Below, one piece after another: positions 4,658 through 63,376 of a stretch of 64,000 bases of DNA (its first letter is position 1; every line of letters begins with the position of its first letter). Under the pieces are notes generated by a model. The model had not been told where the DNA came from and ran no database searches. It saw only the letters and a program-made list of their open reading frames with translations. The position numbers and the translations under genes were made by a program. Origin of the DNA: Gautieria morchelliformis (Eukaryota > Basidiomycota > Agaricomycetes > Gomphales > Gomphaceae); contig WHVA01000341.1 of the NCBI GenBank assembly GCA_015179125.1, positions 1 through 64,000 on the forward strand. Reading direction: 5' to 3'.

Positions 4658-5147
4658 TGTCAGGGGACACCCTGTTTTCCATTCCCAGTTCTGACACCAC
4701 ACCCAGTTCTGAATCCATGTCCGACTCCGCTTCCGGTTCCGATTCCATCTCCGCCTCCGCTTTCGGAAATGATTCCGCTTCTGGGATAACTTCCACCAGT
4801 TCTATTCAGCTTGCCAGTTCCACTCCAATTTCCGACTTCCACTCACGGAACAGTGTCGGAAATCAAGCGACTCGCATAATAGGTGGCATCAAGGGTCGAT
4901 CAAGGGTCAGGGAGGTCAGGAGGATGCAGGGTTGATGGCGGGTGCCAAGTGTTGTCCCTGGCTGCGCAGCGTAGTATAATACGGGCTCGCTGACATTGGG
5001 GGTCCTTAGACTTTTCTCTTTGGATTTCCCCTTGTCAGGTGAGAATCCCCTCTCTTGTATACTCTGTTCATTTATACATACTTTGGATTTCCCCTTGTCA
5101 GTTGTGTGGTAGTGTGATCTCCACAACTAGTCAGGGTTGCCCTTACA
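4658..5147 (+). repeat. 5' LTR of gypsy copy A
   Basis: 490 bp, TGTCAGGG...CCCTTACA. Contains two copies of ctttggatttccccttgtca, a TATAAT element at 4975-4980 and the probable transcript start near 5008. Confidence 0.9.
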
Positions 5148-5159
5148 GCAGAAAAGTCT
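4975..5159 (+). promoter_or_regulatory. LTR promoter and self-primer/PBS pair
   Basis: TATAAT at 4975-4980 lies 33 bp before AGACTTTTCT (5008-5017). The exact reverse complement, AGAAAAGTCT, is at 5150-5159, two bases after the LTR, where a primer-binding site belongs. This is the arrangement known from the Tf1/sushi group, in which the 5' end of the mRNA primes its own reverse transcription. No TGG tRNA-type PBS is present. Confidence 0.6.
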
Positions 5160-5334
5160 CTCCCCTAGAGGACCGGCGGTCATACTGCGCGTTGCATTCG
5201 CCATAGGTGCGTTCGGAATCGGAGACAGCGACTCGGAGATCGCAACCTCTTCCACACACACAGCGTACGACAGCCCCTCTTCTTACGTCGAGCTCCCAAC
5301 CCCGGAAATCCCGTCCCATATTTCTCCTTCCGAC

Positions 5335-6510
5335 ATGGATCCAGACGATCGCCTTCGGAATATGGAGGAGGAACTGACGCGGAACCGGATGAAGACCGAC
5401 GCGATTGAAACAGCCTTACAAGCGATTTTGGCTAAGTTAGATATTCCACAAAGTGGTGGAAATGAAATGCTGGATGATCCGGATTTCGGAAAAGCGGAAG
5501 CAGCGGAAGAGAAGATGTCCGCGAAGTTAGCAAAGGTCAAACCCGCTACTCCGGCGGACTTTGACGGAGATCGGGAGAAGGGATGTGCATTTTTCAACAC
5601 ATGCAGCATCTACTTCGCAATTGTCAGAGACCTCTTTCCGAACGACCAGGCTCGGATCCACTGGGCATTGTCCTTTTTCAAGTCGGACCGCGCAGCCCGT
5701 TTTGCAAACAAGGTGATCCGACATGAAGCAAAGGGAAAGGGGAACTACTTCCGGGACTGGGACGCCTTTGAGAAAACATTTTCCAACCAGTTCTGTGCGA
5801 AAAACGAGCAGCTCACAGCCCTTACGAAGCTCGAGGGGACCAGCTGGTACCAGGCCAAGGATCCGGTCGATGACTACATCGATCGCTTCCAGGAGCTCAT
5901 CGACCTTGCGGAGTATGACAACGACAAGACGATTGTCATCAAATTCTGACGAGGACTTGATCCGACACTCCAGAACCAAGTTGCACTGCTTGGGGATGGA
6001 GCTCCGGATTTCGATGACCCGGAAGGGTGGTACCAAGCTGCGCAGAGGGTGTCCCGGAACAGGGAAGCAAATGAGGCCTTCGTGGAGACAAACCGGAACA
6101 TGACACGCAGTTCCGCTCGTCCTACTCCACCCATGCCAAAACCCGGAAGTGCATTCATTCCCACACGGAAAATATTTCCGATGCTTGTTCCACCTGCTCC
6201 TATCAGGAACCCTAGCCCCCCTCCCTCAAAGTGTGGCCCTTCCCCGATGGATGTTGACCGCATGCGTGGAAAAGGCCACAGAACTATCACCTGCTTCCGA
6301 TGCCGACAACCAGGCCACTATGCTCGCGAGTGCCCCAAAGCCTTTGACATCCGGCTTATGACCACGGAGGAGAAACTCGAGCTCCTTCCAGAGTTCCTCG
6401 CACTTGCGGACATAAGCGGAGTGCCCACTGCGGAAGGGATTTCCAAAAATGCAGAACATGGTCCACCGGAAGCGGAAGATGCGTCGGATTTTGTGATGCG
6501 CAGTGGGTGA
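5335..6510 (+). pseudogene. Gypsy A Gag with CCHC knuckle, one stop
   Basis: Retrotransposon capsid protein that would package the RNA. The likely start is the ATG at 5335, after the LTR; the frame is open further upstream into the LTR. A single in-frame TGA at 5947 interrupts it, followed by CGA, so CGA-to-TGA is the likely lesion. The frame then runs to 6510. The zinc knuckle CFRCRQPGHYARECP (C-X2-C-X4-H-X4-C) is at about 6295-6340, near the C-terminus as usual for Gag. The N-terminal half is acidic and helical. Protease begins in another frame at the gag end. Confidence 0.85.
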
Positions 6511-9500
6511 GAAGTGTGCCCCTGCTGCCTGTACATAACCGGTTTGCCTGTCTTGAAGTAGAGAATGAAAAGCCCCCACCCCCCTCACTTCGTACAGACC
6601 CACCGGATAAAGTCACACAAAAACAAAATCCGACACCCCATCCATCCCGCATCCGCCCCTGGGAGAGACACCTTCCAAAGCGCTATGTTGTTGCTGCCAC
6701 CCCTGGCCCCAAGTCACTAGTCATTAAGGTGGAGATCCAGACGACAGATACGGCGGAAGTCAAATCCGGACCCGCCCTTGTCGATTGCGGGGCCACTGGT
6801 CAGTTTATAGACCGGGACTATGTGGAACGGAACCGACTGACCACGCGGAAGTTGCAACGTGCAATCCCGGTGTTCAATGTGGATGGAAGCCCCAATGAGG
6901 CAGGGTCCATCACGGAGATAGTAGACACAATTCTCCGCTACGATGGACACTCAGAACACACTTCCTTTGCAGTCACAAGCCTGGGGAAGCAAGACATCAT
7001 CCTCGGGTTTACCTGGCTTCAGGAGCACAACCCGGAGATCAATTGGCAGACTCGGAAGGTACTGATGAGTTGATGTCCAGCCAAGTGTCACATGTGCCGG
7101 TCGGAAGTGCGGAAGGAGCGCCAGGAGCAGCGGAAGACCGAACGGCTCATACAGACATGTCGTTCTGGCCCCCATCCACTGCTTGCAGAAGAAGACTCGG
7201 AAGCGGAATTTGAACCGGATCCCACTTCCAATTCCAATTCCAATTCCGACTCGGCCCGGAAGACACTCTGGCGGAAGGGGAGCGCTTGCTGTACGTAAAC
7301 CTTCCCCGGAGGCGGAACACATCCGCGCCACCGGAAATATTTCGCAACGCCTTGCTGAAGCCTCTAAGAGCATGATAGAGTGGAGGCGGAAATTCCGGAG
7401 TACCTGCGGGAGTTCGAGGACGTCTTTTCCAAGGAGTCGTTTGATGCCCTGCCTCCACGGAAGCTGTGGGACCACGCCATCGAGTTGGAGCCTGGGTCAA
7501 AGCCCACCAACTGCAAAGTCTACCCGCTGTCACCCAAGGAGCAGGTAGAGCTCGATGCATTCCTTGCGGAAAACCTCCGTACAGGGAGGATCCGCCCCTC
7601 CAAGTCACCCATGGCATCTCCGGTGTTCTTCATCAAGAGGAAGGACGGCTCGCTCAGACTTGTGCAGGATTACCGGGCCTTGAATGCGATAACGATCAAG
7701 AACCGGTACCCCATTCCACTCATTTCCGAACTGATCACACAACTCCGCGGGTGAGGTACTTCACTAAGCTGGATGTCCGCTGGGGCTTCAATAATGTCCG
7801 GATCCGGGAGGGAGACGATGGAAGGCCGCATTCCGCACCAACCGAGGCTCTTTGAGCCACAGGTCATGTTCTTTGGCCTCAACAACAGTCCTGCCACGTT
7901 CCAGACGATGATGAATGACATTTTCCGCGACATGATAGCAGAAGGGGTTGTCTGCGTCTACCTCGATGACATCCTCATCTTCACAAAAACAATGTCCGAG
8001 CATCGGGAAGTCGTGCGGAGAGTGCTGGAGCTGCTCCGGGAGTACAACCTGTGTCTCAAGCCGGAAAAGTGCGAATTTGAGCGGATGCGGATAGAGTATC
8101 TTGGGGTGATTGTGTCGGAAGGAAAGGTGGAAATGGACCCAGTCAAAGTTTCCGGTGTATCGGATTGGCCGTGCCGCGAACAAGAAGGAGGTCCAGTCCT
8201 TCATTGGGTTTGTCAATTTCTACCGGCAGTTCATCAAGGACTTCTCCTGCCACGCCCGTGCCCTCTTCGACCTCACCAAGAAGGAGGTTGGATGGCGGTG
8301 GGGAGAGCTGGAACAGGCCTCCTTTGACAAACTCAAAGAGCTGATCACTTCCGCCCCGGTCCTGGTCTTTCCCGACGACTCTCGCCCTTACTGAGTCGAG
8401 CGGATTCTTCCGACACAGCTACCGGAGCGGTCTTGTCACAACAATCATCGGAAGATGGTGGGGGGTGGCATCCGATTGCCTTCTTCTCTAAGAGCCTTAG
8501 TCCGGTCGAGCGGAACTATGAGATCCATGACAAGGAGATGCTGGCAACCATCCGAGCACTAGAGGAGTGGCGACACTTCCTCGAGGGTGCTCTATGCCCG
8601 TTTGAGATCTGGACAGACCACAAGAACCTCGAGTATTTCCGCACGTCTAAGAAGTTGAACCAACGACAAGCACGGTGGTCCCTACACCTGTCCCGGTTCG
8701 ACTTCATGCTCCACCACCGGCCCGGCCGCACCATGGGCAAGCCCGATGCCCTATCCCGCCGTGCGGATCATGGAAGCGGAAGTGGAGACAATGCGGATAT
8801 GACACTGCTCCGCCCAAGTCTCTTTGCAATCCGCGCCCTGGAAGGAGTGACGGCAGTTGGGGCGGAAGCGGAAATGCTCCGGGACATCCGGAGGCAGTAC
8901 CGGAATGGAGAGAAGGAGGAGTCGGTGGTGAAGGAGTGGAGGAACTTCGGAAAGGGCACTCACGGTCTGTACGGGCAGCGGAATGGTCGGAACGTGATGG
9001 ACTGCTCCACTTCAGAGGCAAGGTCTATGTTCCAGGTGGGGCGGACCTCCGCCGCCGCGTCGTGTCCCAGCACCATGACACATGGGTCGCTGGGCATGCT
9101 GGCAGGTGGAAGACGTGGAGTTAGTGGCTCGGAATTACTGGTGGCCTCAGATATCCCGCTACATCGGACAGTACGTAAAGACGTGTGACCTTTGTCTCCA
9201 AACCAAAGCGCAACGACATCCGCCCGTCGGAGAACTTGTTCCGCTCCCGATTCCCGAATCCCGCTGGGACACCATCAGTGTCGACTTCATTGTTGAACTC
9301 CCAGAGTCTCATGTCTACGACGCGATCATGAACGTCGTGGATTCGGTGAGCAAGGTGTCCCATTTCATTCCAACGCACACGACGATCACAGCCCTTGGAG
9401 CAGCCTGCCTGTTCCTTGCACATGTCTGGAAGTTGCATGGGCTCCCGAAACAAGTTGTTTCCAACCGAGGTCCGCAGTTTGTCGTGGAACTGACTCGGGA

Positions 9501-10386
9501 GATCTACCGCCTGCTCGGCATAAGGCTGGCTACCACCACGGCGTACCATCCGCAGGGTGACGGACAGACGGAACGGGTCAATCAGGAGTTGGAGCAATAT
9601 CTCCGCCTCTTTGTCAATGAGAGGCAGGATGACTGGGACGAGTTACTTCCACTGGCAGAATTCCAATACAACAACCATGTCCATTCCGCCACACAACAAA
9701 CTCCCTTCATGCTTGACTCCGGACGACACCCGCGGATGGGCTTCGAGCCACGCCAGGCTGACTCCTGACTCGAGACGGTCAATGAGTTCCGGGACCGCAT
9801 GGACTCCACCCTTTCGGAAGCCAAGTCGGCCCTTGCGAAGGCCAAGGATGACATGGCAAGGTACTACAACCAACGCTGGGTTCCTGCCCCAGAGTACCAA
9901 GTTGGAGACAAGGTGTACCTAGATGCAAGTGACATCCGCACCACACGCCCTTCGTAGAAGCTTGCCCACCGCTACCTTGGGCCCTTCACAGTGACGCAGA
10001 GGGTTGGACGGAATGCATACCGCCTCCGACTTCCGATGTCCATGTCCCGCCTCCACCCCGTCTTCAACGTGGTGAAGTTACTCCCTATGCTCGAGGACCT
10101 GATTCCAGGTCGGAAGGCTTGTCCGCCACCTCTGCCGGAAATTGTAGATGGGGAAGAGCACTATGTGGTGGAACGGATCCTGGACAGCCGGTTTGTGCGA
10201 GGACGACTCCAATTCCTCGTGAAATGGGAAGGGTATGGATATGAGGAGAATTCGTGGATCCCGGAGCAAGATGTTTCCGCTCCAGACAAACTCCGTGAGT
10301 TCTATAGGACACACCCCGGTGCCCCTCGCCGAATCTGCTCGCTGGAATTTCAATCCCTTGTGTCCCGTGCTTCGGGGACGCAGCAC
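6511..10386 (+). pseudogene. Gypsy A Pol: PR-RT-RH-IN-chromodomain, broken
   Basis: Domains in order: aspartic protease with DCGATG (about 6783), reverse transcriptase with YLDD (about 7958), RNase H (about 8430-8760), integrase (about 9080-9760) and a chromodomain (about 10150-10280, LVKWEGYG). Stops occur at 7071 (TGA), 8392 (TGA where copy B has CGA), 9766 (TGA) and 9956 (TAG). One-base deletions relative to B fall near 7300, 7370, 7750, 8165, 8400 and 9115. The second integrase catalytic Asp is Asn (VSNRGPQF, about 9463), also in copy B. Not functional. Confidence 0.9.
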
Positions 10387-10402
10387 GCTAGAGGGGGGGT
10401 GA

Positions 10403-10904
10403 TGTCAGGGGACACCCTGTTTTCCATTTCCAGTTCCGACTCCATTTCCGACTCCGCTTCCGGTTCCGATTCCATTTCCGACTCAGCTTCCGGTTCCGAT
10501 TCCATCTCCACCTCCGCTTTCGGAAATGATTCCGCTTCTGGGAGAACTTCCACCAGTTCTGTTCGCCTCGCCAGTTCCACTCCAATTTCCGACTTCCACT
10601 CTCGGAACAGTGTCGGAAATCAAGCGACTCGCGTAATAGGTGGCATCAAGGGTCGATCAAGGGTCAGGGTGGTCAGGGAGATGCAGGGTTGATGGCGGGT
10701 GCCAAGTGTTGTCCCTGGCTGCGCAGCGTAGTATAATACGGGCTCGCTGACATTGGGGGTCCTTAGACTTTTCTCTTTGGATTTCCCCTTGTCAGGTGAG
10801 AATCCCCTCTCTTGTATACTCTGTTCATTTATACATACTTTGGATTTCCCCTTGTCAGTTGTGTGGTAGTGTGATCTCCACAACCAGCCAGGGTTGCCCT
10901 TACA
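10403..10904 (+). repeat. 3' LTR of gypsy copy A
   Basis: 502 bp, same length as the copy B LTR (15526-16027) and apparently identical to it, but 12 bp longer than its own 5' LTR. It follows a G-rich tract (gagggggggtgatgtc). Confidence 0.9.
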
Positions 10905-15525: not shown

Positions 15526-16027
15526 TGTAAGGGCAACCCTGGCTGGTTGTGGAGATCACACTACCACACAACTGACAAGGGGAAATCCAAAGTATGTATA
15601 AATGAACAGAGTATACAAGAGAGGGGATTCTCACCTGACAAGGGGAAATCCAAAGAGAAAAGTCTAAGGACCCCCAATGTCAGCGAGCCCGTATTATACT
15701 ACGCTGCGCAGCCAGGGACAACACTTGGCACCCGCCATCAACCCTGCATCTCCCTGACCACCCTGACCCTTGATCGACCCTTGATGCCACCTATTACGCG
15801 AGTCGCTTGATTTCCGACACTGTTCCGAGAGTGGAAGTCGGAAATTGGAGTGGAACTGGCGAGGCGAACAGAACTGGTGGAAGTTCTCCCAGAAGCGGAA
15901 TCATTTCCGAAAGCGGAGGTGGAGATGGAATCGGAACCGGAAGCTGAGTCGGAAATGGAATCGGAACCGGAAGCGGAGTCGGAAATGGAGTCGGAACTGG
16001 AAATGGAAAACAGGGTGTCCCCTGACA
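15526..16027 (-). repeat. LTR of gypsy copy B
   Basis: 502 bp, same length as and apparently identical to the 3' LTR of copy A. The outer flank is gcatc; no partner duplication is visible because the 5' end is missing. Confidence 0.92.
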
Positions 16028-19000
16028 TCACCCCCCCTCTAGCGTGCTGCGTCCCCGAAGCACGGGACACAAGGGATTGAAATTCCAGCGAGCAGATTCG
16101 GCGAGGGGCACCGGGGTGTGTCCTATAGAACTCACGGAGTTTGTCTGGAGCGGAAACATCTTGCTCCGGGATCCACGAATTCTCCTCATATCCATACCCT
16201 TCCCATTTCACGAGGAATTGGAGTCGTCCTCGCACAAACCGGCTGTCCAGGATCCGTTCCACCACATAGTGCTCTTCCCCATCTACAATTTCCGGCAGAG
16301 GTGGCGGACAAGCCTTCCGACCTGGAATCAGGTCCTCGAGCATAGGGAGTAACTTCACCACGTTGAAGACGGGGTGGAGGCGGGACATGGACATCGGAAG
16401 TCGGAGGCGGTATGCATTCCGTCCAACCCTCTGCGTCACTGTGAAGGGCCCAAGGTAGCGGTGGGCAAGCTTCTACGAAGGGCGTGTGGTGCGGATGTCA
16501 CTTGCATCTAGGTACACCTTGTCTCCAACTTGGTACTCTGGGGCAGGAACCCAGCGTTGGTTGTAGTACCTTGCCATGTCATCCTTGGCCTTCGCAAGGG
16601 CCGACTTGGCTTCCGAAAGGGTGGAGTCCATGCGGTCCCGGAACTCATTGACCGTCTCGAGTCAGGAGTCAGCCTGGCGTGGCTCGAAGCCCATCCGCGG
16701 GTGTCGTCCGGAGTCAAGCATGAAGGGAGTTTGTTGTGTGGCGGAATGGACATGGTTGTTGTATTGGAATTCTGCCAGTGGAAGTAACTCGTCCCAGTCA
16801 TCCTGCCTCTCATTGACAAAGAGGCGGAGATATTGCTCCAACTCCTGATTGACCCGTTCCGTCTGTCCGTCACCCTGCGGATGGTACGCCGTGGTGGTAG
16901 CCAGCCTTATGCCGAGCAGGCGGTAGATCTCCCGAGTCAGTTCCACGACAAACTGCGGACCTCGGTTGGAAACAACTTGTTTCGGGAGCCCATGCAACTT
17001 CCAGACATGTGCAAGGAACAGGCAGGCTGCTCCAAGGGCTGTGATCGTCGTGTGCGTTGGAATGAAATGGGACACCTTGCTCACCGAATCCACGACGTTC
17101 ATGATCGCGTCGTAGACATGAGACTCTGGGAGTTCAACAATGAAGTCGACACTGATGGTGTCCCAGCGGGATTCGGGAATCGGGAGCGGAACAAGTTCTC
17201 CGACGGGCGGATGTCGTTGCGCTTTGGTTTGGAGACAAAGGTCACACGTCTTTACGTACTGTCCGATGTAGCGGGATATCTGAGGCCACCAGTAATTCCG
17301 AGCCACTAACTCCAACGTCTTCCACCTGCCAGCATGCCCAGCGACCCATGTGTCATGGTGCTGGGACACGACGCGGCGGCGGAGGTCCGCCCCACCTGGA
17401 ACGTAGACCTTGCCTCTGAAGTGGAGAAGCCCATCACGTTCCGACCATTCTGCTGCCCGTACCGACCGCGAGTGCCCTTTCCGAAGTTCCTCCACTGCCT
17501 TCACCACCGACTCCTCCTTCTCTCCATTCCGGTACTGCCTCCGGATGTCCCAGAGCATTTCCACTTCCGCCCCAACTGCAGTCACTCCCTCTAGGGCACG
17601 GATTGCAAAGAGACTTGGGCGGAGCAGTGTCACATCCGCGTTGTCTCCACTTCCGCTTCCATGATCCGCACGGCGGGATAGGGCATCGGGCTTGCCCATG
17701 GTGCGGCCTGGGCGGTGGCGGAGCAGGAAGTCGAACCGGGACAGGTGTAGGGACCACCGTGCTTGTCGTCGGTTCAACTTCTTAGATGTGTGGAAATACT
17801 CGAGGTTCTTGTGGTCTGTCCAGATATCAAACGGGCATAGAGCACCCTCGAGGAAGTGTCGCCACTCCTCCAGCGCTCGGATGATTGCCAGCATCTCCTT
17901 GTCGTGGATCTCATAGTTCCGCTTGACCGGACTAAGGCTTTTAGAGAAGAAGGCAATCGGACGCCATCCCCCATCATCTTCCGATGACTGTTGTGACAAG
18001 ACCGCTCGGGTAGCTGTGTTGGAAGAGTCCGCCTCGACTCGATAAGGGCGAGAGTCATCGGGAAAGATCAGGACCGGGGCGGAAGTGATCAGCTCTTTGA
18101 GTTTGTCAAAGGAGGCCTGTTCCGGCTCTCCCCACTGCCATCCAACCTCCTTCTTGGTGAGGTTGAAGAGGGCACGAGCATGGCAGGAGAAGTCCTTGAT
18201 GAATCGTTGGTAGAAATTGACAAACCCAATGAAGGACTGGACCTCTTTCCTGTTCTGCGGCACAGGCCAATCCGACACACCGGAAACATTGACTGGGTCC
18301 ATTTCCACCTTCCCTTCCGACACAATCACCCCAAGATACTCTATCCGCATCCGCTCAAATTCGCAATTTTCCGGCTTGAGACACAGGTTGTATTCCCGGA
18401 GTCGTTCCAGTACTCTCCGCATGACTTCCCGATGTTCGGACATTGTTTTTGTGAAGATGAGGATGTCATCGAGGTAGACACAGACAACCCCTTCTGCTAT
18501 CATGTCACGGAAAATGTCATTCATCATCGTCTGGAATGTGGCGGGACTGTTGGTAAGGCCGAAGAACATGACCTGTGGCTCAAAGAGTCCTCGGTTGGTG
18601 CGGAATGTGGCCTTCCACTCGTCTCCCTCCCGGATCCGAACATTATTGAAGCCCCAGCGGACATCCAGCTTAGTGAAGTACCTTGCCCCGTGGAGTTGTG
18701 TGATCAGTTCGGAAATGAGTGGAATGGGGTACCGGTTCTTGATTGTGATCGCATTCAAGGCCCGGTAATCCTGCACAAGTCTGAGTGAGCCGTCCTTCTT
18801 TTTGATGAAGAACACCGGAGATGCCATGGGTGACTTGGAGGGGCGGATCCTCCCTGTACGGAGGTTTTCCGCAAGGAATGCATCGAGCTCTACCTGCTCC
18901 TTGGGTGACAGCGGGTAGACCTTGCAGTTGGTGGGCTTTGACCCAGGCTCCAACTCGATGGCATGGTCCCACAGCTTCCGTGGAGGCAGGGCATCAAACG

Positions 19001-19154
19001 ACTCCTTGGAAAAGACGTCCTCGAACTCCCGCAGGTACTCCGGAATTTCCGCTTCCACTCTATCATGGTTCTTGGAGGCTTCAGCAAGGCGTTGCGAAAT
19101 ATTTCCGGTGGCGTGGATGTGTTCCGCTTCTGGCGGAAGGTTCACATACAGCAA
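16028..19154 (-). pseudogene. Gypsy B Pol fragment: RT-RH-IN-chromodomain
   Basis: An 830-codon open stretch (19154-16662) runs without a break through RT (VYLDD at about 18475), RNase H with catalytic-type [10 protein letters not shown] and integrase zinc-binding and core regions. It ends at the same TGA as copy A. A TAG follows at about 16472-16474, then the chromodomain frame to 15738. The second integrase Asp is Asn (VSNRGPQF), as in copy A. There is no start codon or protease, so this is a fragment although most of it is undamaged. It is useful as the undamaged reference for reading lesions in copy A. Confidence 0.9.
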
Positions 19155-19206
19155 GTGTCAGGTGCTCCAGGAGACTGACTCCCCATAACTACATCGCACA
19201 GTGTAA

Positions 19207-26341: not shown

Positions 26342-26694
26342 TGTTATTTCGTTATTTCGTTGCCTGCCATGATGGGAAGGACCGGGAGGAGTCTGCACAT
26401 TAACTCGAGTGCAGGAGATGTAGGGAAAAGAACTTGAGACTGATAGTGAGGACACTGTTAACTCACTCAACTGGACTCAACAGTGTGAGTGAATGGGCTG
26501 AAACCAATGATTTGTTGTAGCTAAAGTCCTAGCTACTTATACAGTGGTGAACAGGGGTAAAACCCTATGGAACATTGGATTAGGAGTGTATACATCACCA
26601 ATGATGTCAATGATGATGCTATGTGCCCCTAGGTGGATAATCCATTGATGATAATGTATGCCCCTAGGAAATACCCCTCTAGAATCCAATAACA
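26342..26694 (-). repeat. 3' LTR of TRIM-like copy 2
   Basis: 353 bp, TGTTAT...ATAACA ends; nearly identical to its partner at 27507-27859. Confidence 0.92.
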
Positions 26695-27506: not shown

Positions 27507-27859
27507 TGTTATTTCGTTATTTCGTTGCCTGCCATGATGGGAAGGACCGGGAGGAGTCTGCACATTAACTCGAGTGCAGGAGATGTAGGGAAAAGAACTT
27601 GAGACTGATAGTGAGGACACTGTTAACTCACTCAACTGGACTCAACAGTGTGAGTGAATGGGCTGAAACCAATGATTTGTTGTAGCTAAAGTCCTAGCTA
27701 CTTATACAGTGGTGAACAGGGGTAAAACCCTATGGAACATTGGATTAGGAGTGTATACATCACCAATGATGTCAATGATGATGCTATGTGCCCCTAGGTG
27801 GATAATCCATTGATGATAATGTATGCCCCTAGGAAATACCCCTCTAGAATCCAATAACA
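27507..27859 (-). repeat. 5' LTR of TRIM-like copy 2
   Basis: 353 bp; the primer site (ccatgagactcttaatc on plus) abuts its internal side at 27490-27506. Confidence 0.92.
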
Positions 27860-27864
27860 ATATC

Positions 27865-28215
27865 AAGCTTATAGTAATAGTAAAGAGCGTACTTTCGAGA
27901 GCAACGCCGTCAATCACATTATTAGCTAATCCACCGGCACCAGAGTACCTGTTATTTTCACAGACGCACACCACAGCTCATGAACATCTCGTCGCCGACC
28001 ACAAGCGTAGACGTCAGCCAGGGATCTCACAAGCGCAGTCCCCTGGAGACACCATTACGAGCAGATATATTCCCCCACTGGTCAGTAGCAGAGAAGAAGC
28101 TGGTATGGTTAAGGAGAAGGAAACAAAGAGGAGGTGCGCGACCAGTTAAAGTATGACGTACCTTCACAAACGCGGCACCTTAGGGACCTGGCCCGTGCAC
28201 AATGGTGCAAGCGCC
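27865..28215. other. Intergenic, no gene recognised
   Basis: No supported coding region. Short open frames only. This is the region upstream of U2 locus 1. Confidence 0.4.
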
Positions 28216-28223
28216 CACGGAGG

Positions 28224-28229
28224 TATAAA
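28224..28229 (+). promoter_or_regulatory. TATA box of U2 locus 1
   Basis: TATAAA, about 35 bp before the inferred RNA start. The corresponding place in locus 2 has no TATA-like element. Confidence 0.5.
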
Positions 28230-28260
28230 GCCCCCCTGGCCCGCAAAACTGAACTTCTTT

Positions 28261-28490
28261 ACCACTCTGGCCGTTTGGTACGTGCCCCATTAACTTACGA
28301 GAGCCCAGTAACTAACAGACCGTACAGGCTTAGATCAAGTGTAGTATCTGTTCTTTTTAGTTTAACCACTAAAATGACCGCACCGCGGTCATCATTGGTT
28401 AGCCAATTTTTGCCGCCCTCGTCCTTCGACCTCTGCTTGCACGTCGGGGAGCACGATGACCTTGCCATTGCAGTACTGGCTTGTGTCGTC
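28261..28490 (+). ncRNA. U2 snRNA locus 1, with mRNA-type intron
   Basis: U2 small nuclear RNA, which pairs with the intron branch site. Exon 1 is about 28261-28277 (ends GGCCGTTTG) and exon 2 starts at 28328. The 50-bp intron 28278-28327 has GTACGT, a TAACTAAC branch site and TACAG. Spliced, it gives GGCCGTTTGGCTTAGATC, the universal U2 5' stem-loop. Then follow the branch-pairing region AAGTGTAGTATCTGTTC, stem IIa (TTTAGT/ACTAAA), a TGACCG/CGGTCA hairpin, Sm site AATTTTTG (28405-28412) and stem-loop IV with CATTGCAGTACT. The 5' and 3' ends are approximate. One loop base differs from consensus (GGCCgTTTGG). Confidence 0.87.
28278..28327 (+). other. Spliceosomal intron inside U2 snRNA
   Basis: GT-AG intron, 50 bp, GTACGT donor, CTAAC branch site, acceptor CGTACAG. 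Same insertion point as in locus 2, but the intron interiors differ in sequence. Confidence 0.82.
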
Positions 28491-28574
28491 AGGGGATCTT
28501 CTGTTCGCTTACTCTTACAGCCTTGTCATTGTGCCCCTTATTAAAGGGACAGAACACTGCAGAAAGCGCCGGCA

Positions 28575-30775: not shown

Positions 30776-31779
30776 ACAACAACAACAAAAATCCGGACGC
30801 TAGCTGAGTAAGCTATCACTGGGGTGAACAGATGACGTACCACTCATTGGCCATGGCCCATACGTCTACAGGAAGCATCCATAGGGCGGGTCACAGCCAG
30901 TCGCTGCGAAGATTATAAGTACGATGTCATGTCCATCAGTGAAAGAAGAGAAAAACATAAGAGGTCACAGTTCGTACGCGATGGTTTGGTAGCGACCGCA
31001 GAGGGGCGCCCACTGCGAACACACGACATGGAAGGTGCATAGAATGATAAGGATCGAACCGTGGGTTCTGACGAATCCGATAGAGTCAATGCTCGCGCGA
31101 TCCCGGAGAGGTGTCCTACTTACTGATACTCTGATAAGTCAGTGTCAAAATAGACCGCCTCAGCGGCGACAAGGTCGAGCTGCTCGTCGGCGACAATAGC
31201 GCACAGCTGCTCCACGAGTACTGAGACCACAAAGTAACAAGGCACAAGGAGGTGACAGAACATTAGCAGTCGAATGCCGATAGAAGAAGCTCCCATCTGA
31301 CATTCAGGAAACTGTTAATAGTCAGTAATACCCCACAACCACTCTCCGCAGACTGTCCCGTACATACTTCCAATTTTTTGGAATGCCAAGGCCCACTATG
31401 CACACGGGAATAACCACAACATTTCAAGACCGAAGGGTTGTGCCAACGCAGACAAGCATACGCAAAGTGATTTCCGTGAGCCGACAGGGAACAGCGCATT
31501 CCCCGCAGGCTGCTCTCAATGCCCAGACCTGCAGTTTCAAGCGAAATGCCATATATATTGAAGTTCATCAAGTTAAACATTGTGCCTCCGCCGTCAGTGG
31601 ACCTAATGCCGACAGAACATAAGACAGATCACTGACAAGCTGTAAGAAGTGAAAAACCCTGGATCACATTCAGGGACACAAGGAAGTTCTATTCACAGCC
31701 CGTTACAGTCATGCTCCTGGTCCCTTCAATAAGGGCGACAATGACAAAGCTGTAAGAGTAAGCGAACAGAAGATCCCCT
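30776..31779. other. Intergenic, no gene recognised
   Basis: Nothing supported. The part next to U2 locus 2 (about 31728-31779, minus) matches the sequence 3' of locus 1, including cttactcttacag and a CCCTT-atta-AAGGG hairpin, so both loci share their 3' flanks. Confidence 0.45.
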
Positions 31780-31992
31780 GACGACACAAGCCGGTAAGGT
31801 CATCGTGCCCCCCAACGTGCAAGCAGAGGTCGAAGGACGAGGGCGGCAAAAATTGGCTAACCAGCGATGACCGCTGTGCGGTCATTTTAGTGGTTAAACT
31901 AAAAAGAACAGATACTACACTTGATCTAAGCCTGTATGGTTAGTTGCTGTGCAGTCTAGGTTATTCCGCACGTACCAAAAGGCCAGAGTGGT
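31780..31992 (-). ncRNA. U2 snRNA locus 2, loop IV deleted (probable pseudogene)
   Basis: Inverted second U2 copy. Exon 1 is about 31992-31976 (ends GGCCTTTTG, the exact consensus). The intron is 31975-31932 (44 bp; GTACGT, CAACTAAC, CATACAG). Exon 2 runs from 31931 (GCTTAGATCAAGTGTAG) through stem IIa and Sm site AATTTTTG to 31780. Relative to locus 1 about 11 bases of stem-loop IV are gone, including the conserved ATTGCAGTA loop that would bind U2B''/U2A'. No TATA-like element is seen upstream. Probably a pseudogene, though its 5' domain is better conserved than that of locus 1. Confidence 0.82.
31932..31975 (-). other. Spliceosomal intron inside U2 locus 2
   Basis: 44-bp GT-AG intron at exactly the same U2 position as in locus 1, with the same donor hexamer and CTAAC branch site. 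Confidence 0.82.
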
Positions 31993-32560
31993 AAAGAAAA
32001 ATCGCATTTGAGCCCCGCTTGCATGCTTTTGTGGGCGCTTGGCAAAATACTCCACAGGCGCGTTGCCCACACTCCACGGAGCCTCCACCTACCGCGGCAC
32101 CTCCTATTCTCTTTCCTTTTCCTGCGCTTTACCCTCTTCTCTGCTAGTAGCTGCTGGGAGAAGATATCCGCTCGCAACGGTGCCTCCTGGGGACAGCGCT
32201 TGTGAGGTCTTGTGTCACATCTGGTTGTGCGTCGAGATGCTATGAGCTGCGGTGTACGTCGATGAAAATAACAGGTACGGTTGGTGCCTTTGTTTTAGTT
32301 CAATGATGCTGATTGAGCCACGTCGCTTTATAAAATTTGGGCTCTTCATTAGGCTTGATAAGAGATGCGCTGCGTTTCTGTTTGCTTGTAGATCCAGGCA
32401 TCTCCTGGCTTAGAGTCTTTCCACATGTTGTGAAATTCAGATCGCAGCAATGTCATATGTGTCTATCTAGCAAACCGTTGTCGACCAGGACTTGTAACAT
32501 ACAGATTGGCTACCATAACGACTCTCTATTCTGAGGCGGACAAAGAGAGTCCTTAATGTA
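31993..32560. other. Intergenic, no gene recognised
   Basis: Upstream flank of U2 locus 2 and downstream flank of the nuclease-like pseudogene. Short frames only. Confidence 0.4.
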
Positions 32561-53627: not shown

Positions 53628-53689
53628 ATAACTAAACTACTACAAATCTAACTACGCTCTATACTCCAATAACTCAATACCGATCGACG

Positions 53690-54898
53690 ATGTCGAGTAG
53701 CAACAACACGTACAAGATCGACCCCTTGAACAGGGATAATTACGCGGTGTGGCGCCGGCGGCTCGAGTGGATACTCGATGACTTAGATCTGTGGGACGTG
53801 GCTATCGGCAGGGAGACGGAACTGAGACCGGCAGATGCCAACAACGTCACTGCGACCGAGCAGCAGGAAATCGACGATTGGAGAAGGAAAGACAAAAAAG
53901 CTAGAAAAGAAATTTGCCTCAGAGTTGCCGATGAACAACTAGTTTACATCAATCAGATGATGTCTGCATTTGCTGTATGGACTAGTCTACAAGCAATATT
54001 TGAATCAAAGGGAGCAGTGGGGATTGTAAATCTCCGAAGAGATTTCTTCTGGACGCTTGCCGAGGACGGCGCGAACATGGAGGAGCACGTACGCAAGCTC
54101 CGCGGCATTCAACAGGAACTGAATGCGCGGGGACATTACATCAGTGACACCGAGTTCTCGAACACGTTGCTGACGTCATTACCAGATTCTTGGTCGGCGT
54201 TTATTACGGCAGTAAACGCCAGTGGAGCCGGGACAACAGCTGATATATTAATAGCTCAGGTCCTCAATGAGGATCGAGCACGGAAAGCTGGATCGGCACG
54301 GCAGACGGCGCTTAAGGCGCAACAACGTCACAGGACCAGGAAAGATGACTCAGGAGCAACAAAGGGAAAGTGCCGAAATTGCGGCAAGAAGGGTCATTAC
54401 GTGAAGGACTGCTGGGCGAAAGGTGGCGGCAAGGAGGGCCAAGCACCGAAATGGTTCAAATCAGGGAACAAAGAAACAGTCAAACAAGCAGAAGAAAAGG
54501 ACTTCGCATTTGTATCTAAGGAGGTAGCATACAGTGCTATATCTGCATCCGACTGGTTAGCCGATTCAGCGGCAACAACACATATAGCTCGAAGCCGAAA
54601 CGATTTCGCTAGCTATGCCGAGGAACCATCAGAAATCGAAGGAATTTCACCCGGTGCGGTACTACATACACAAGGCCGAGGCACGATCTACATGGAATTC
54701 AAGGTCGGCGCCAAGACGAACACGATCGAGCTACGTGACGTCAAACACGCACCAGATGCGCCGAACAACCTTATCAGTGTAGGGTGTTTAACTGATAAGG
54801 GTAACACGGCCACATTTTCAGGCACCGGCGTCGAATTCAAATCACGCGCCGGAGTTACCTTCGCACAGGGACAGAAGCGCGGCGGCTGTTCTGTATGA
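53690..54898 (+). CDS. Copia Gag-protease
   Basis: 402 codons from ATG 53690. Gag begins YKIDPLNRDNYAVWRRRLEW, the usual copia/Ty1 gag opening. The zinc knuckle CRNCGKKGHYVKDC lies at about residue 229. The protease site is WLADSAATTHI (DSAAT; DSGAT is more common). The frame stops at TGA 54896 just as the integrase N-terminus should start, because of a frameshift: the next residues continue in another frame. Confidence 0.88.
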   Translation: MSSSNNTYKIDPLNRDNYAVWRRRLEWILDDLDLWDVAIGRETELRPADANNVTATEQQEIDDWRRKDKKARKEICLRVADEQLVYINQMMSAFAVWTSLQAIFESKGAVGIVNLRRDFFWTLAEDGANMEEHVRKLRGIQQELNARGHYISDTEFSNTLLTSLPDSWSAFITAVNASGAGTTADILIAQVLNEDRARKAGSARQTALKAQQRHRTRKDDSGATKGKCRNCGKKGHYVKDCWAKGGGKEGQAPKWFKSGNKETVKQAEEKDFAFVSKEVAYSAISASDWLADSAATTHIARSRNDFASYAEEPSEIEGISPGAVLHTQGRGTIYMEFKVGAKTNTIELRDVKHAPDAPNNLISVGCLTDKGNTATFSGTGVEFKSRAGVTFAQGQKRGGCSV

Positions 54899-57706
54899 AG
54901 GCACGGGTCACTCGATCAGTCGAGGCACGGGACTTTGCCGCAGCAGCAAAAGGACGGTCATGGGACAAATGGCACAGGATACTCGGGCACGTCAACATTC
55001 TATAAAGATGTTGAAATCTAACGATCTAGTCACCGGACTTGAGATCGACGAGTCAAACGAGCCGAGCCAGTGCAAAGCATGCATACAAGGCAAACGGCAT
55101 GTGGAGCCGTTCCCCAAAAGAGCCGAGGACACTGTAGAACAGGTCGGTGACCTAACAGTATCCGATGTATGGGGACCTGCCCAGACCGAGGGACCATCGC
55201 GTGAGAAATACTTTTATTCTTTCACGGATATCAATCTAGGTACACGGTCATTTATTTCGGGAGCACCAAAGATGAAGCGCTCAAACACTTCGAGACGTAC
55301 AAGGCATTCCTCGAGACCCAAACAGGTCAGAAACTGAAGAGGTTTCGCTCAGATAATGGAGGGGAATATGTCAATAAAAATTTTAAGGAATTTTGTGCAA
55401 AATATGGCATTATCATGGAGACCACAGCTCCATACTCCCCAGCCCAGAATGGAATCGCCGAACGACTCAACCGGACCTTACTCGAGCACGCACGGGAGAT
55501 GATATTTGCCAAGAACCTGCCAAAAATACTCTGGCCCGAGGCCGTGGCTTACGCGTGCTATATCAAAAATCGATCACCCACGCGAGCGCTTGGAGATGAC
55601 GCAACGCCGTTTCAAGCACTATTCGGCAAGAAGCCGAACATAGCACATCTAGAGGAATTTGGAACAAATTGTTGGGTTATGGTGCCGGATCAACGTCGAG
55701 CCAAACTTGATCCAAAGGCAGAAGAACATATCTTCGTCGGAGTAGCAGAACATGCAAAAGCCTGGAGGTACTACAATAAAGCCTCAAAGCACATTCAAGT
55801 CTCTAGGAACATTACATTTGACGAAAATGACAACCGACTCTACCCCATCCCAGATAACGACGATGACGACACGGCACCGCTCGAGGGGGAGCACTCACCG
55901 CGCGAGCATGTGCCGGACCCGATCACATCTACCCCACAGACGTCATCACCCCAGACAACGCCCGTTCCTGATCCACCTGAACAAGCGCCAGCTCCACAGA
56001 TTCGACGGAGCGCGTGTATCACTCAAAGACCGGATTACCGGAAGCTGAATGATTCAGGACGCACCGAGCAGGTTTACATAACGAAAGAAATCGTCACTGA
56101 ACCTGAGAATTACAGAGCGGCGGTATCACGTGATGATGCGCCGATCTGGGAGAAAGCGATGGAAATTGAGATGGATCAACACAAGACGTTAGGAACATGG
56201 GAATTAACAAAACTACCACCCGGACGAGTAGCTATCGGTTGCCGATGGGTATACGCTGTCAAAACACAACCGGACGGACAATTCGATAAGGCTAAAGCGA
56301 GGGTTGTGGCTCAAGGATTCACACAGAGGCCAGGGATGGATTACTACGAGATAACCTCACCCGTGGTCAAATTCGATTCACTACGTGTTCTATTAGCGAT
56401 CGCAAACACACTCGATTGGGAAATCGAAATGATGGATGTCAAAGGCGCCTACCTCAATTCAACCATAGATGAGGAGATCTACATGCGCCAGCCCGACGGT
56501 TTTGATGATGGATCTGGACGCGTTCTAAGAATATACAGAGCGCTCTACGGACTCAAACAATCGGGGCGAGCTTGGCATCAGCGCTTACGCAAATTACTAC
56601 TCGATCTTGGCTTCCATCAAAGTACAGCCGATGAATGCGTCTACATCAGACAAGATAAGGATTCAATCGAAGTCATATCAGTATATGTGGACGACTTCGG
56701 ACTATTTGCTGACTCCAAGGGAGGGATGATTAAGCTCAAGGGGGAGCTTCATAGGAAATTCCCTTTAACAGATTTAGGAGAAATGAAGAAAATCTTGGGA
56801 ATTAGAGTTGAGAGGAATAGGGATGAGGGAACACTGATCATGTCACAAGGACATTACATCGACATCATACTCGATCGATTCAACATGACAACAGCACATT
56901 CCGTATCTACACCTCTGCATAAAATGATCAAACTCACAACACCCATGGACTCGACAGGTCCAACTGCCGAAGTACCCTATGCCAAAGCGATCGGATCATT
57001 AATGTATGCAGCACTCAGCACGCGACCTGATTTGGCCTTTACCGTACAACATCTGAGCCAATTCACTACTACTTATGGAACCGAGCACTGGACGGCGATC
57101 AAGCACGCGCTCAGGTACCTCAAGGGGTCACGTGACGACGGCATAACCTTCCGACGAGACGCTGGTCTCGACCTCGAAATATTCGTTGACTCAGATTATG
57201 CTAATAGAAACGACGCACTATCTATTAGTGGCTATGTAGCTATACTAGGAGGGGGAGCTATCGCATGGAGCTCGAAGAAGCAGCGAACGATCGCGCTATC
57301 TACCACGGAGGCCGAATACATGGCACTTACCGAGGGCGCCAAGCAATTAATCTGGCTGAGGCGTTTCATTGAGGAACTTGGAATCGATCAAACCCAGCCC
57401 ACGTCACTTCGATCAGACAATCTAGGCGCCATTACACTATCGCATGACGCAACGTATCATGCGCGTACCAAACACATCAATGTCGCATATCATTTCATCC
57501 GTGAGAAAGTGGCCTCTCACGAGGCATCACTTACGTACGTACCGACGAAGGAGAACATAGCGGACATATTTACAAAGGGATTGGATTTACACCAACACAG
57601 GTATCTATTAGGGAAATTAGGATTTTGTCGAAGGGACTTCTCGCTGAGGGGGAGTGTTAGTAATCGGGACGATGACACCGCCAAGGCAGAGCCGGCACGC
57701 ACTTAG
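54899..57706 (+). pseudogene. Copia Pol: IN-RT-RNase H, frameshifted N-terminus
   Basis: Integrase zinc-finger region WDKWHRILGHVN (about 54955) and CKACIQGKRH are in two different frames, and the core resumes in a third after about 55235 (RFRSDNGGEYV, then NGIAERLNRTLLEHAR). From 55415 to 57706 there are 763 uninterrupted codons: integrase C-terminus, RT with ISVYVDDFGLFAD (about 56690) and RNase H with IFVDSDYANR, STTEAEYMAL and LRSDNLGAI. Two or three indels between 54890 and 55240 therefore inactivate integrase while RT-RNase H is open. Confidence 0.88.
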
Positions 57707-62506: not shown

Positions 62507-63259
62507 ATGACTTTCCCAATATACCGCCTAGTGCGATTTCGTCCTCTTTTCAATCGTCGTTTTTCATCTGTGCCACCTTCTTCCCCTCCTCGACCTGTAA
62601 CGCTAGCCTCCCGCCCGATCCTCTTCATATCCATATTTGGTGTTTTGCACCAGTCCCTCGCCACTCTTTCCCTCCTTCCAGCCTACGGATACTTCCATTT
62701 CACGGACTCGTCAACAGCTTTTCTCGTAGGTCCACATGTGGCACATCTCTTACGCAAACCTCTTCCGTTTTCACACGGTGGGAGAACCATGGAGGATGTG
62801 CTTGACACGGTAATGGGCAGCTATATCAAGACGGGTTGGCGTTTCTGGTCTAAGTGGAACGGAAGAAAATCAGATGAGCGTGAGGCTGATGAAATTGTGA
62901 AGGAAGTTCTAGAGGAACTAGAGGAGAAAAGGAGCTGGAGAGCTGAATCATATGCCATGAAGAATCGTCTTGTCGAGATGAAAGATCGCGCTCTCGCTTT
63001 GAAAGCTGAGCCTTCGGAAACGATACAGGCTCTGAAGAATCGTCTTGTGGACATCAGAAATGGCGCTGTTGCGATGAGAGACGAGCCTCCGGAATGGATG
63101 TCTAAGATGAATCTGAATGCAGATCAGCTGCGGGAATGGAAGGATTGGGTTGCGGAGAGACTGCCTGTATTTGATGAGGTTGTTCAACCCAAGAATGGTG
63201 CACTGAAAGCTATGACGGATGCGGCTGCAGCATACCTCGTTGTCAAAGTGGGTCATTAG
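62507..63259 (+). CDS. Probable mitochondrial membrane protein, unknown
   Basis: Single exon, 250 residues from the ATG at 62507; the frame is open upstream to 62375 without coding character. The N-terminus MTFPIYRLVRFRPLFNRRFS is Arg-rich and lacks acidic residues, as in a mitochondrial presequence. A hydrophobic segment (about residues 40-62, LFISIFGVLHQSLATLSLLPA) follows. The remainder is charged and helical, with a duplicated unit of about 33 residues: MKNRLVEMKDRALALKAEP and LKNRLVDIRNGAVAMRDEP. The family is not recognised. Shares a divergent promoter with the BTB gene. Confidence 0.65.
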   Translation: MTFPIYRLVRFRPLFNRRFSSVPPSSPPRPVTLASRPILFISIFGVLHQSLATLSLLPAYGYFHFTDSSTAFLVGPHVAHLLRKPLPFSHGGRTMEDVLDTVMGSYIKTGWRFWSKWNGRKSDEREADEIVKEVLEELEEKRSWRAESYAMKNRLVEMKDRALALKAEPSETIQALKNRLVDIRNGAVAMRDEPPEWMSKMNLNADQLREWKDWVAERLPVFDEVVQPKNGALKAMTDAAAAYLVVKVGH

Positions 63260-63376
63260 CTTTTGTTTACTGTATATAAACTTCTAGTCTGGTTGACAGG
63301 CCTCAGCTCCTTTGCGCATAGCGCTGAACATATTTGTGACACCCAAAGTGGCCCGGCTACTCGTACGTCGCTGGGG

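Follow-up and report, generated by a model that had tools for sequence, protein, structure and literature searches.

A U2 snRNA gene of Gautieria morchelliformis with a probable spliceosomal intron in stem-loop I, at a site interrupted in all U2 cores found in the assembly

Can an RNA on which splicing depends be encoded by a gene whose own transcript has to be spliced? The question is raised by a locus of Gautieria morchelliformis (Gomphales, Agaricomycetes), a fungus whose lifestyle is given as ectomycorrhizal in the accessible text of PMC7550596. The host assembly comprises 122 Mb in 1113 contigs, and the window, i.e. the whole stretch of 64,000 nucleotides that was analysed, corresponds to contig C384. 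A preliminary description had placed a 50-bp intron (GTACGT...TACAG) within the 5' stem-loop of a U2 gene, just past TTTG, and the sequence at 28261-28490 is as it described. We estimate at roughly nine in ten the probability that 28261-28497 is a U2 gene whose 50-nt U2-type intron is spliced out, with a promoter-directed start at or near 28261, new U2 being dependent on existing U2 snRNP; this estimate is drawn from comparative sequence analysis.

Two U2 matches were returned by the Rfam search in the window, one on the plus strand at 28312-28497 (model RF00004, 91.6 bits vs a gathering score of 46, E 6.4e-17) and one on the minus strand at 31773-31950 (75 bits). Both copies fit the first two dozen model positions poorly, because these positions were placed on intron letters. 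The plus-strand gene contains the branch-recognition GUAGUA, an Sm site and a stem-loop IV with a U2B''-type loop. Its exon 2 opens with GCTTAGATCAAGTGTAGTATCTG, and taking out the 50 nt yields GGCCGUUUGGCUUAGAUCAAGUGUAGUAUCUG, which is the U2 5' region; since G is both the last base of exon 1 and the first of exon 2, the boundary may also be placed one base leftward with the same product. The coordinates of both copies are collected in Table 1.

Table 1. Features of the two U2 copies (positions are those of the window)
Feature	Position	Strand	Remarks
PSE-like element TGGCCCGTGCAC	28189..28200	+	GTGCAC within it starts at -66 from exon 1
TATA box	28224..28229	+	-37 from exon 1
U2 exon 1 ACCACTCTGGCCGTTTG (5' end, U6-pairing strand, 5' strand and loop of stem-loop I)	28261..28277	+	
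Predicted spliceosomal (U2-type) intron, 50 nt	28278..28327	+	GTACGT...TAACTAAC...TACAG; CTAAC starts 16 nt before the end
U2 exon 2 (remainder of stem-loop I, GUAGUA for branch recognition, Sm site, 3' stem-loops)	28328..~28497	+	Rfam RF00004 match, motif check
Exon 1 of second U2	31976..31992	-	
Predicted intron of second U2, 44 nt	31932..31975	-	
Exon 2 of second U2	31773..31931	-	Rfam match; stem-loop IV loop lacking

A GT donor (GTACGT, an imperfect match to U1), an AG acceptor (TACAG) and a branch site at a usable distance are all present in the 50-nt stretch. The combination of GTnnG, CTRAY near the end and CAG was encountered in 4 of 200000 random window stretches of equal lengths; from this test, from the same interruption in all 20 cores found and from the higher profile score after removal (both below), a chance origin of the window intron signals was rejected.

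Two features went beyond the preliminary description. The loop of the window exon 1 is GTTT, a single-base change from the TTTT of the other 16 of the 17 copies compared below, and another U2 copy is present in the opposite orientation at a distance of 3.3 kb. The two copies belong to an inverted duplication (28023-28550 and 31720-32209) whose likeness extends about 240 nt upstream of exon 1. The minus-strand copy has lost its stem-loop IV loop, and a search of its 98 upstream nt showed neither TATA nor GTGCRC, so that it is probably decayed. The pair lies in a repeat-rich region, as judged from LTR-retrotransposon-like frames of the window at 5131-10692, 15738-19157 and 53636-57706 (by eye, two Gypsy-like in opposite orientations and one Copia-like). 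A direct repeat of 195 nt (100% identical, at 26500-26694 and 27665-27859) is found upstream of the U2 gene; its first copy begins at the edge of the searched stretch, and the repeat may thus be longer. At the right end of the window, the protein gene P0001 (62507-63377) is covered by two exon matches, one ending at 63247 and the next starting at 63297, which delimit an intron of about 50 nt, the single host intron with which the 50 nt of the U2 intron were compared. The protein encoded there has 100% identity, across 99% of a 250-residue query, with one of Gautieria morchelliformis, so that the window comes from this species or from a very near relative.

The census of U2 loci was performed with a core pattern (at most 2 mismatches) within the one 122-Mb assembly, a search that a U2 absent from the assembly or with more than 2 core changes would escape. 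The pattern was found at 20 places, compared with 0 for a control pattern, and these are the same 20 loci as those found by the Rfam search. An intronless U2 elsewhere in the genome, the counter-observation named in the preliminary description, was sought among them: none of the 20 is continuous, and all 20 carry an intron at the same site. In 17 of them exon 1 is intact and the intron measures 44-56 nt. The other three (L020, L021 and L022), in which exon 1 falls outside the strict pattern near the core, were excluded from the 17-copy statistics; L020 has a diverged loop with the intron at the same site, and in L021 and L022 the intron contains a retroelement, exon 1 standing beyond it at about 5.9 and 6.2 kb on the upstream side.

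Exon 1 was recovered at 22 places of the assembly without mismatch, and at 43 with at most 1 mismatch (reversed control, 23). The 22 exact places are the 17 copies, the L021/L022 pair and three places on contigs C292, C845 and C952, where exon 1 lies near a contig end and is followed by the same retroelement start. The inserts within the U2 intron, of about 5.9 and 6.1 kb in the stretches L073 (C1045:1-6300) and L077 (C1097:3300-10000), are non-LTR-retroelement-like; their frames, on the opposite strand, resemble by eye those of a reverse transcriptase, an endonuclease, RNase H and a zinc knuckle, and each insert is bordered on both sides by a short direct repeat.

The continuous U2 junction (GGCC, any four bases, GGCTNAGATCAAG) was found nowhere in the assembly at 0 mismatches. 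With at most 2 mismatches, the pattern matched 53 times and its reversed control 20 times; of the 53, 8 mark the intron ends of U2 copies already known, 2 proved on inspection not to be U2, and 43 coincide with none of the 20 U2 cores. The pattern matches L052 and L053 were ruled out as U2 on reading. Outside the host, the core pattern gave 0 matches in viral contigs and a longer U2 pattern 0 matches in prokaryote genome contigs. A 22-base U2 core occurred in four stretches of prokaryote contigs (L054-L057), on all of which U2 was placed by Rfam. The match runs gap-free over the intron site in L054, L055 and L057 (alignments viewed for L054 and L055); in L056 it begins past the intron site, and a second core match there is missing from the Rfam list. 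L054 also contains animal-type histone stem-loops. These four stretches tell nothing about related fungi.

Among the 17 copies, which are related and therefore are not independent observations, mean pairwise identity was 99.3% in exon 1 and 90.4% in exon 2, against 56.7% across the intron and 50.0% over the 98 nt that precede exon 1. Exon 1 is identical in 16 of 17, the window copy being off by its one loop base, and its 99% identity against 50-57% for the flanks indicates that it is under selection. In the introns, which fall by eye into about four classes, the donor is GTACGT in 6 copies, GTGAGT in 6, GTACGC in 4 and GTATGT in 1; GTnnG at the start and CAG at the end are kept in all 17, and CTRAY is located 12-21 nt before the intron end in 16 (the exception, L026, has TTGAC). 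Letters that drift while the splice signals are kept form the signature of an excised intron. An insert retained in the mature U2, as a lineage-specific expansion enlarging stem-loop I, would agree with the one fixed site and the limited length of 44-56 nt. It is nevertheless highly improbable: no common fold was obtained for the 17 introns (alifold 0.0), their stability does not exceed that of mononucleotide shuffles (z from -0.79 to 1.44), the part that is conserved is the splice signals, and the usual stem-loop is restored by removal.

Several copies are probably decayed: the minus-strand window copy and L025 are without the stem-loop IV loop, the Sm site of L025 is altered as well, L024 has one altered letter in that loop, and L026 has an altered U2 core in addition to its TTGAC branch. 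Such copies, and the two with a retroelement in the intron, might suggest that all intron-bearing copies are pseudogenes and that the working U2 is an intronless gene outside the assembly. We regard this as very unlikely, given the intron in every core found, the lack of any continuous junction in the search above, the selection apparent on exon 1, the TATA box kept in 14 of 17 copies and the fit of exon 1 to the U6 of the host.

This fit was evaluated on the U6 tail, which is complementary to U2 exon 1 over 9 bp with -17.1 kcal/mol (a helix II-type pairing), an energy that 12 of 20000 12-mers drawn at random from the window attain. Exon 1 is unlike the usual U2 5' end (compared with the U2 of L054), yet it matches the host U6 tail; U2 and U6 thus seem to have changed together, which suggests that exon 1 is part of a working U2 and no relic. 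The spliced and unspliced forms were scored on a small U2 profile that combines the Rfam consensus with two outside U2 sequences. That removal of the intron restores U2, as had been claimed, agrees with a higher score of the spliced form in 17 of 17 copies, by 9.7-12.5 bits (9.7 for the window copy); the match starts at profile position 11 when spliced and at 18-20 when unspliced, and stem-loop I folds in the spliced form of all 17.

Promoter positions were calibrated on the U1 genes of the host. GTGCRC followed by the U1 5' end occurred at 13 places, against 1 for the reversed control. Eight of these (L058, L060, L061, L062, L064, L065, L067 and L068) continue as U1 genes or pieces, and in 7 of the 8 TATA is placed at -34 or -35 relative to the U1 5' end; the remaining 5 were judged on the matched letters alone. 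Of the 17 U2 copies, 14 have TATA at -34 to -37 relative to exon 1 (none recognised in the other 3), and 14 have GTGCRC at -59 to -69 (absent in 3). As the TATA spacing is that of the host U1 genes, transcription of U2 most likely starts at exon 1 and runs through the intron. A start within the intron letters, giving U2 a new 5' end with no splicing, could appeal to the Rfam model, which can be stretched over these letters to position 1. This is barely conceivable, since TATA lies 34-37 nt ahead of exon 1 (34-35 nt in host U1 genes) but would be 88 nt away if transcription began at 28312, where the Rfam match has its 5' end, and since the stretched 5' stem contains several non-standard pairs and is unlike between the two window copies.

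We infer, with the intron reading, the transcription of U2, its splicing and its dependence on existing U2. A TATA/PSE-like layout of snRNA genes goes with RNA polymerase II, by which the intron-bearing precursor would most likely be transcribed, from the TATA/PSE-like promoter and with a start at or near 28261. In the numbering of mature U2, the intron would interrupt stem-loop I behind nucleotide 17 or so, with the helix II (U6-pairing) strand on one side and the branch-recognition region on the other. Existing spliceosomes would excise it and join UUUG to GCUUAG, after which the 5' end could fold stem-loop I and pair with U6. The excised spliceosomal intron first proposed accords with where the promoter lies, with the pairing of U2 to U6, with the unequal divergence of exon and intron and with the profile scores. 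Because the intron is in every U2 gene found in the assembly, a new U2 snRNP would need a pre-existing one. Neutral intron gain in an ancestral U2 gene, perhaps by reverse splicing, would be the simplest view of its origin, and the site common to all copies found would place the gain before their multiplication.

Other spliceosomal RNAs of the host were also surveyed. U5 (2 loci) and U6 (2 loci) are continuous, without intron. No evident intron was seen by eye in the U1 loci, which are divergent: L065 diverges past about 50 nt, and L062 is without a part. A genome-wide search with the Rfam U1 model returned nothing up to an E of 10, and the same model, applied with a limit of E 1 to 6 of the 8 U1 loci located through their promoters, matched none of them; the first-stem loop of the host U1 differs from the usual U1-70K site. 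For U3, sub-threshold matches alone were obtained (best 25.7 bits vs a cut-off of 34), and U3 was not clearly found. PSE-like elements are also present upstream of U1 and U4 genes. By eye, the U5/U6 genes (L027/L028, L040) have a common upstream stretch like ACGACAGGCTCRACCAAA, and U1, U2 and U4 genes have TGGYCYGTGCRC-like upstream elements rather than that stretch.

U4 was found at 11 loci, 9 of them above the Rfam cut-off, and here some copies carry an apparent intron. In L031, L032, L033 and L039, a GT..CACAG stretch of 54-60 nt follows the same 5' exon, inside the U4/U6 stem II strand; part of exon 2 is lost in L039. In L030 the donor side is shorter by one base, a truncated intron remnant is left in L034, L035 and L037, and the 5' parts of L036 and L038 are disrupted. 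L029 is continuous, the continuous U4 junction occurring once in the assembly. For L031, the one copy tested, U4/U6 stem II reaches -23.0 kcal/mol after removal of the stretch, as in L029, vs -10.6 unspliced. The U4 intron is less certain than that of U2, because its donor, GTTCGT, is unusual and the intron is about as conserved as exon 2 (77.5% vs 81.8% in the four copies).

Taking both RNAs together, a wider proposal may be put forward tentatively, at somewhat short of even odds: all U2, and part of U4, would be made solely by U2-dependent splicing, so that the U2 snRNP pool would be self-templating, inherited, self-amplifying and not rebuildable from DNA once lost; and the two intron sites, both at U6-pairing 5' segments (beside helix II in U2, inside stem II in U4), would be traces of introns that had reverse-spliced into the RNAs of the spliceosome. 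On the main reading, the spliceosome would be strictly self-dependent, an essential catalytic-core RNA being encoded, as far as found, by intron-interrupted genes alone. The host could then serve as a natural test of how introns get into spliceosomal RNAs (by reverse splicing close to the catalytic core), of whether splicing capacity is buffered or amplified by the self-dependence loop, and of the U2 snRNP as an inherited, non-DNA requirement. For annotation, covariance-model searches may give a false 5' end to such genes, as in the Rfam match at 28312-28497, which misses the predicted start at 28261.

Known systems resemble this one in part. In the U3 snoRNA, short spliceosomal introns close to the 5' end are broadly distributed in Basidiomycota, and only U3 and U6, among small structured RNAs, are known as often interrupted by introns, according to the accessible portion of PMC5832005. 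The U3 introns and the Gautieria U2 intron are both short and close to the 5' end of a small structured RNA; U3 is outside the spliceosome, so its introns entail no self-dependence. Introns in fungal U6 genes (Tani & Ohshima 1989, 1991; Canzler et al. 2016; all as reported in citing papers) likewise concern a spliceosomal snRNA that needs splicing, but this is a different snRNA, and the two U6 loci of the host are continuous. In the open-access literature, against which the statement of the preliminary description that no intron is known at this U2 position in mushroom-forming fungi was compared, no report of this U2 site or of U4 introns was found, the relevant older papers being outside that coverage. 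The preliminary description had mentioned mRNA-type introns in snRNA genes of Rhodotorula/Rhodosporidium-type yeasts, and one is indeed on record in the U2 gene of Rhodotorula hasegawae (Takahashi et al. 1993, Mol Cell Biol 13:5613, as cited in the accessible part of PMC2586383). R. hasegawae and Gautieria would then both be basidiomycetes with a spliceosomal intron in U2, here deduced from sequence. The intron of R. hasegawae, a member of Pucciniomycotina and thus of a different subphylum, is said to lie just downstream of the branch-recognition region, whereas that of Gautieria lies upstream of it, in stem-loop I; its presence in all 20 U2 cores found is counted as a further difference. This difference in position would argue for separate gains. 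An intron in U2 is thus already known as a kind, and its position and host group appear to be different here.
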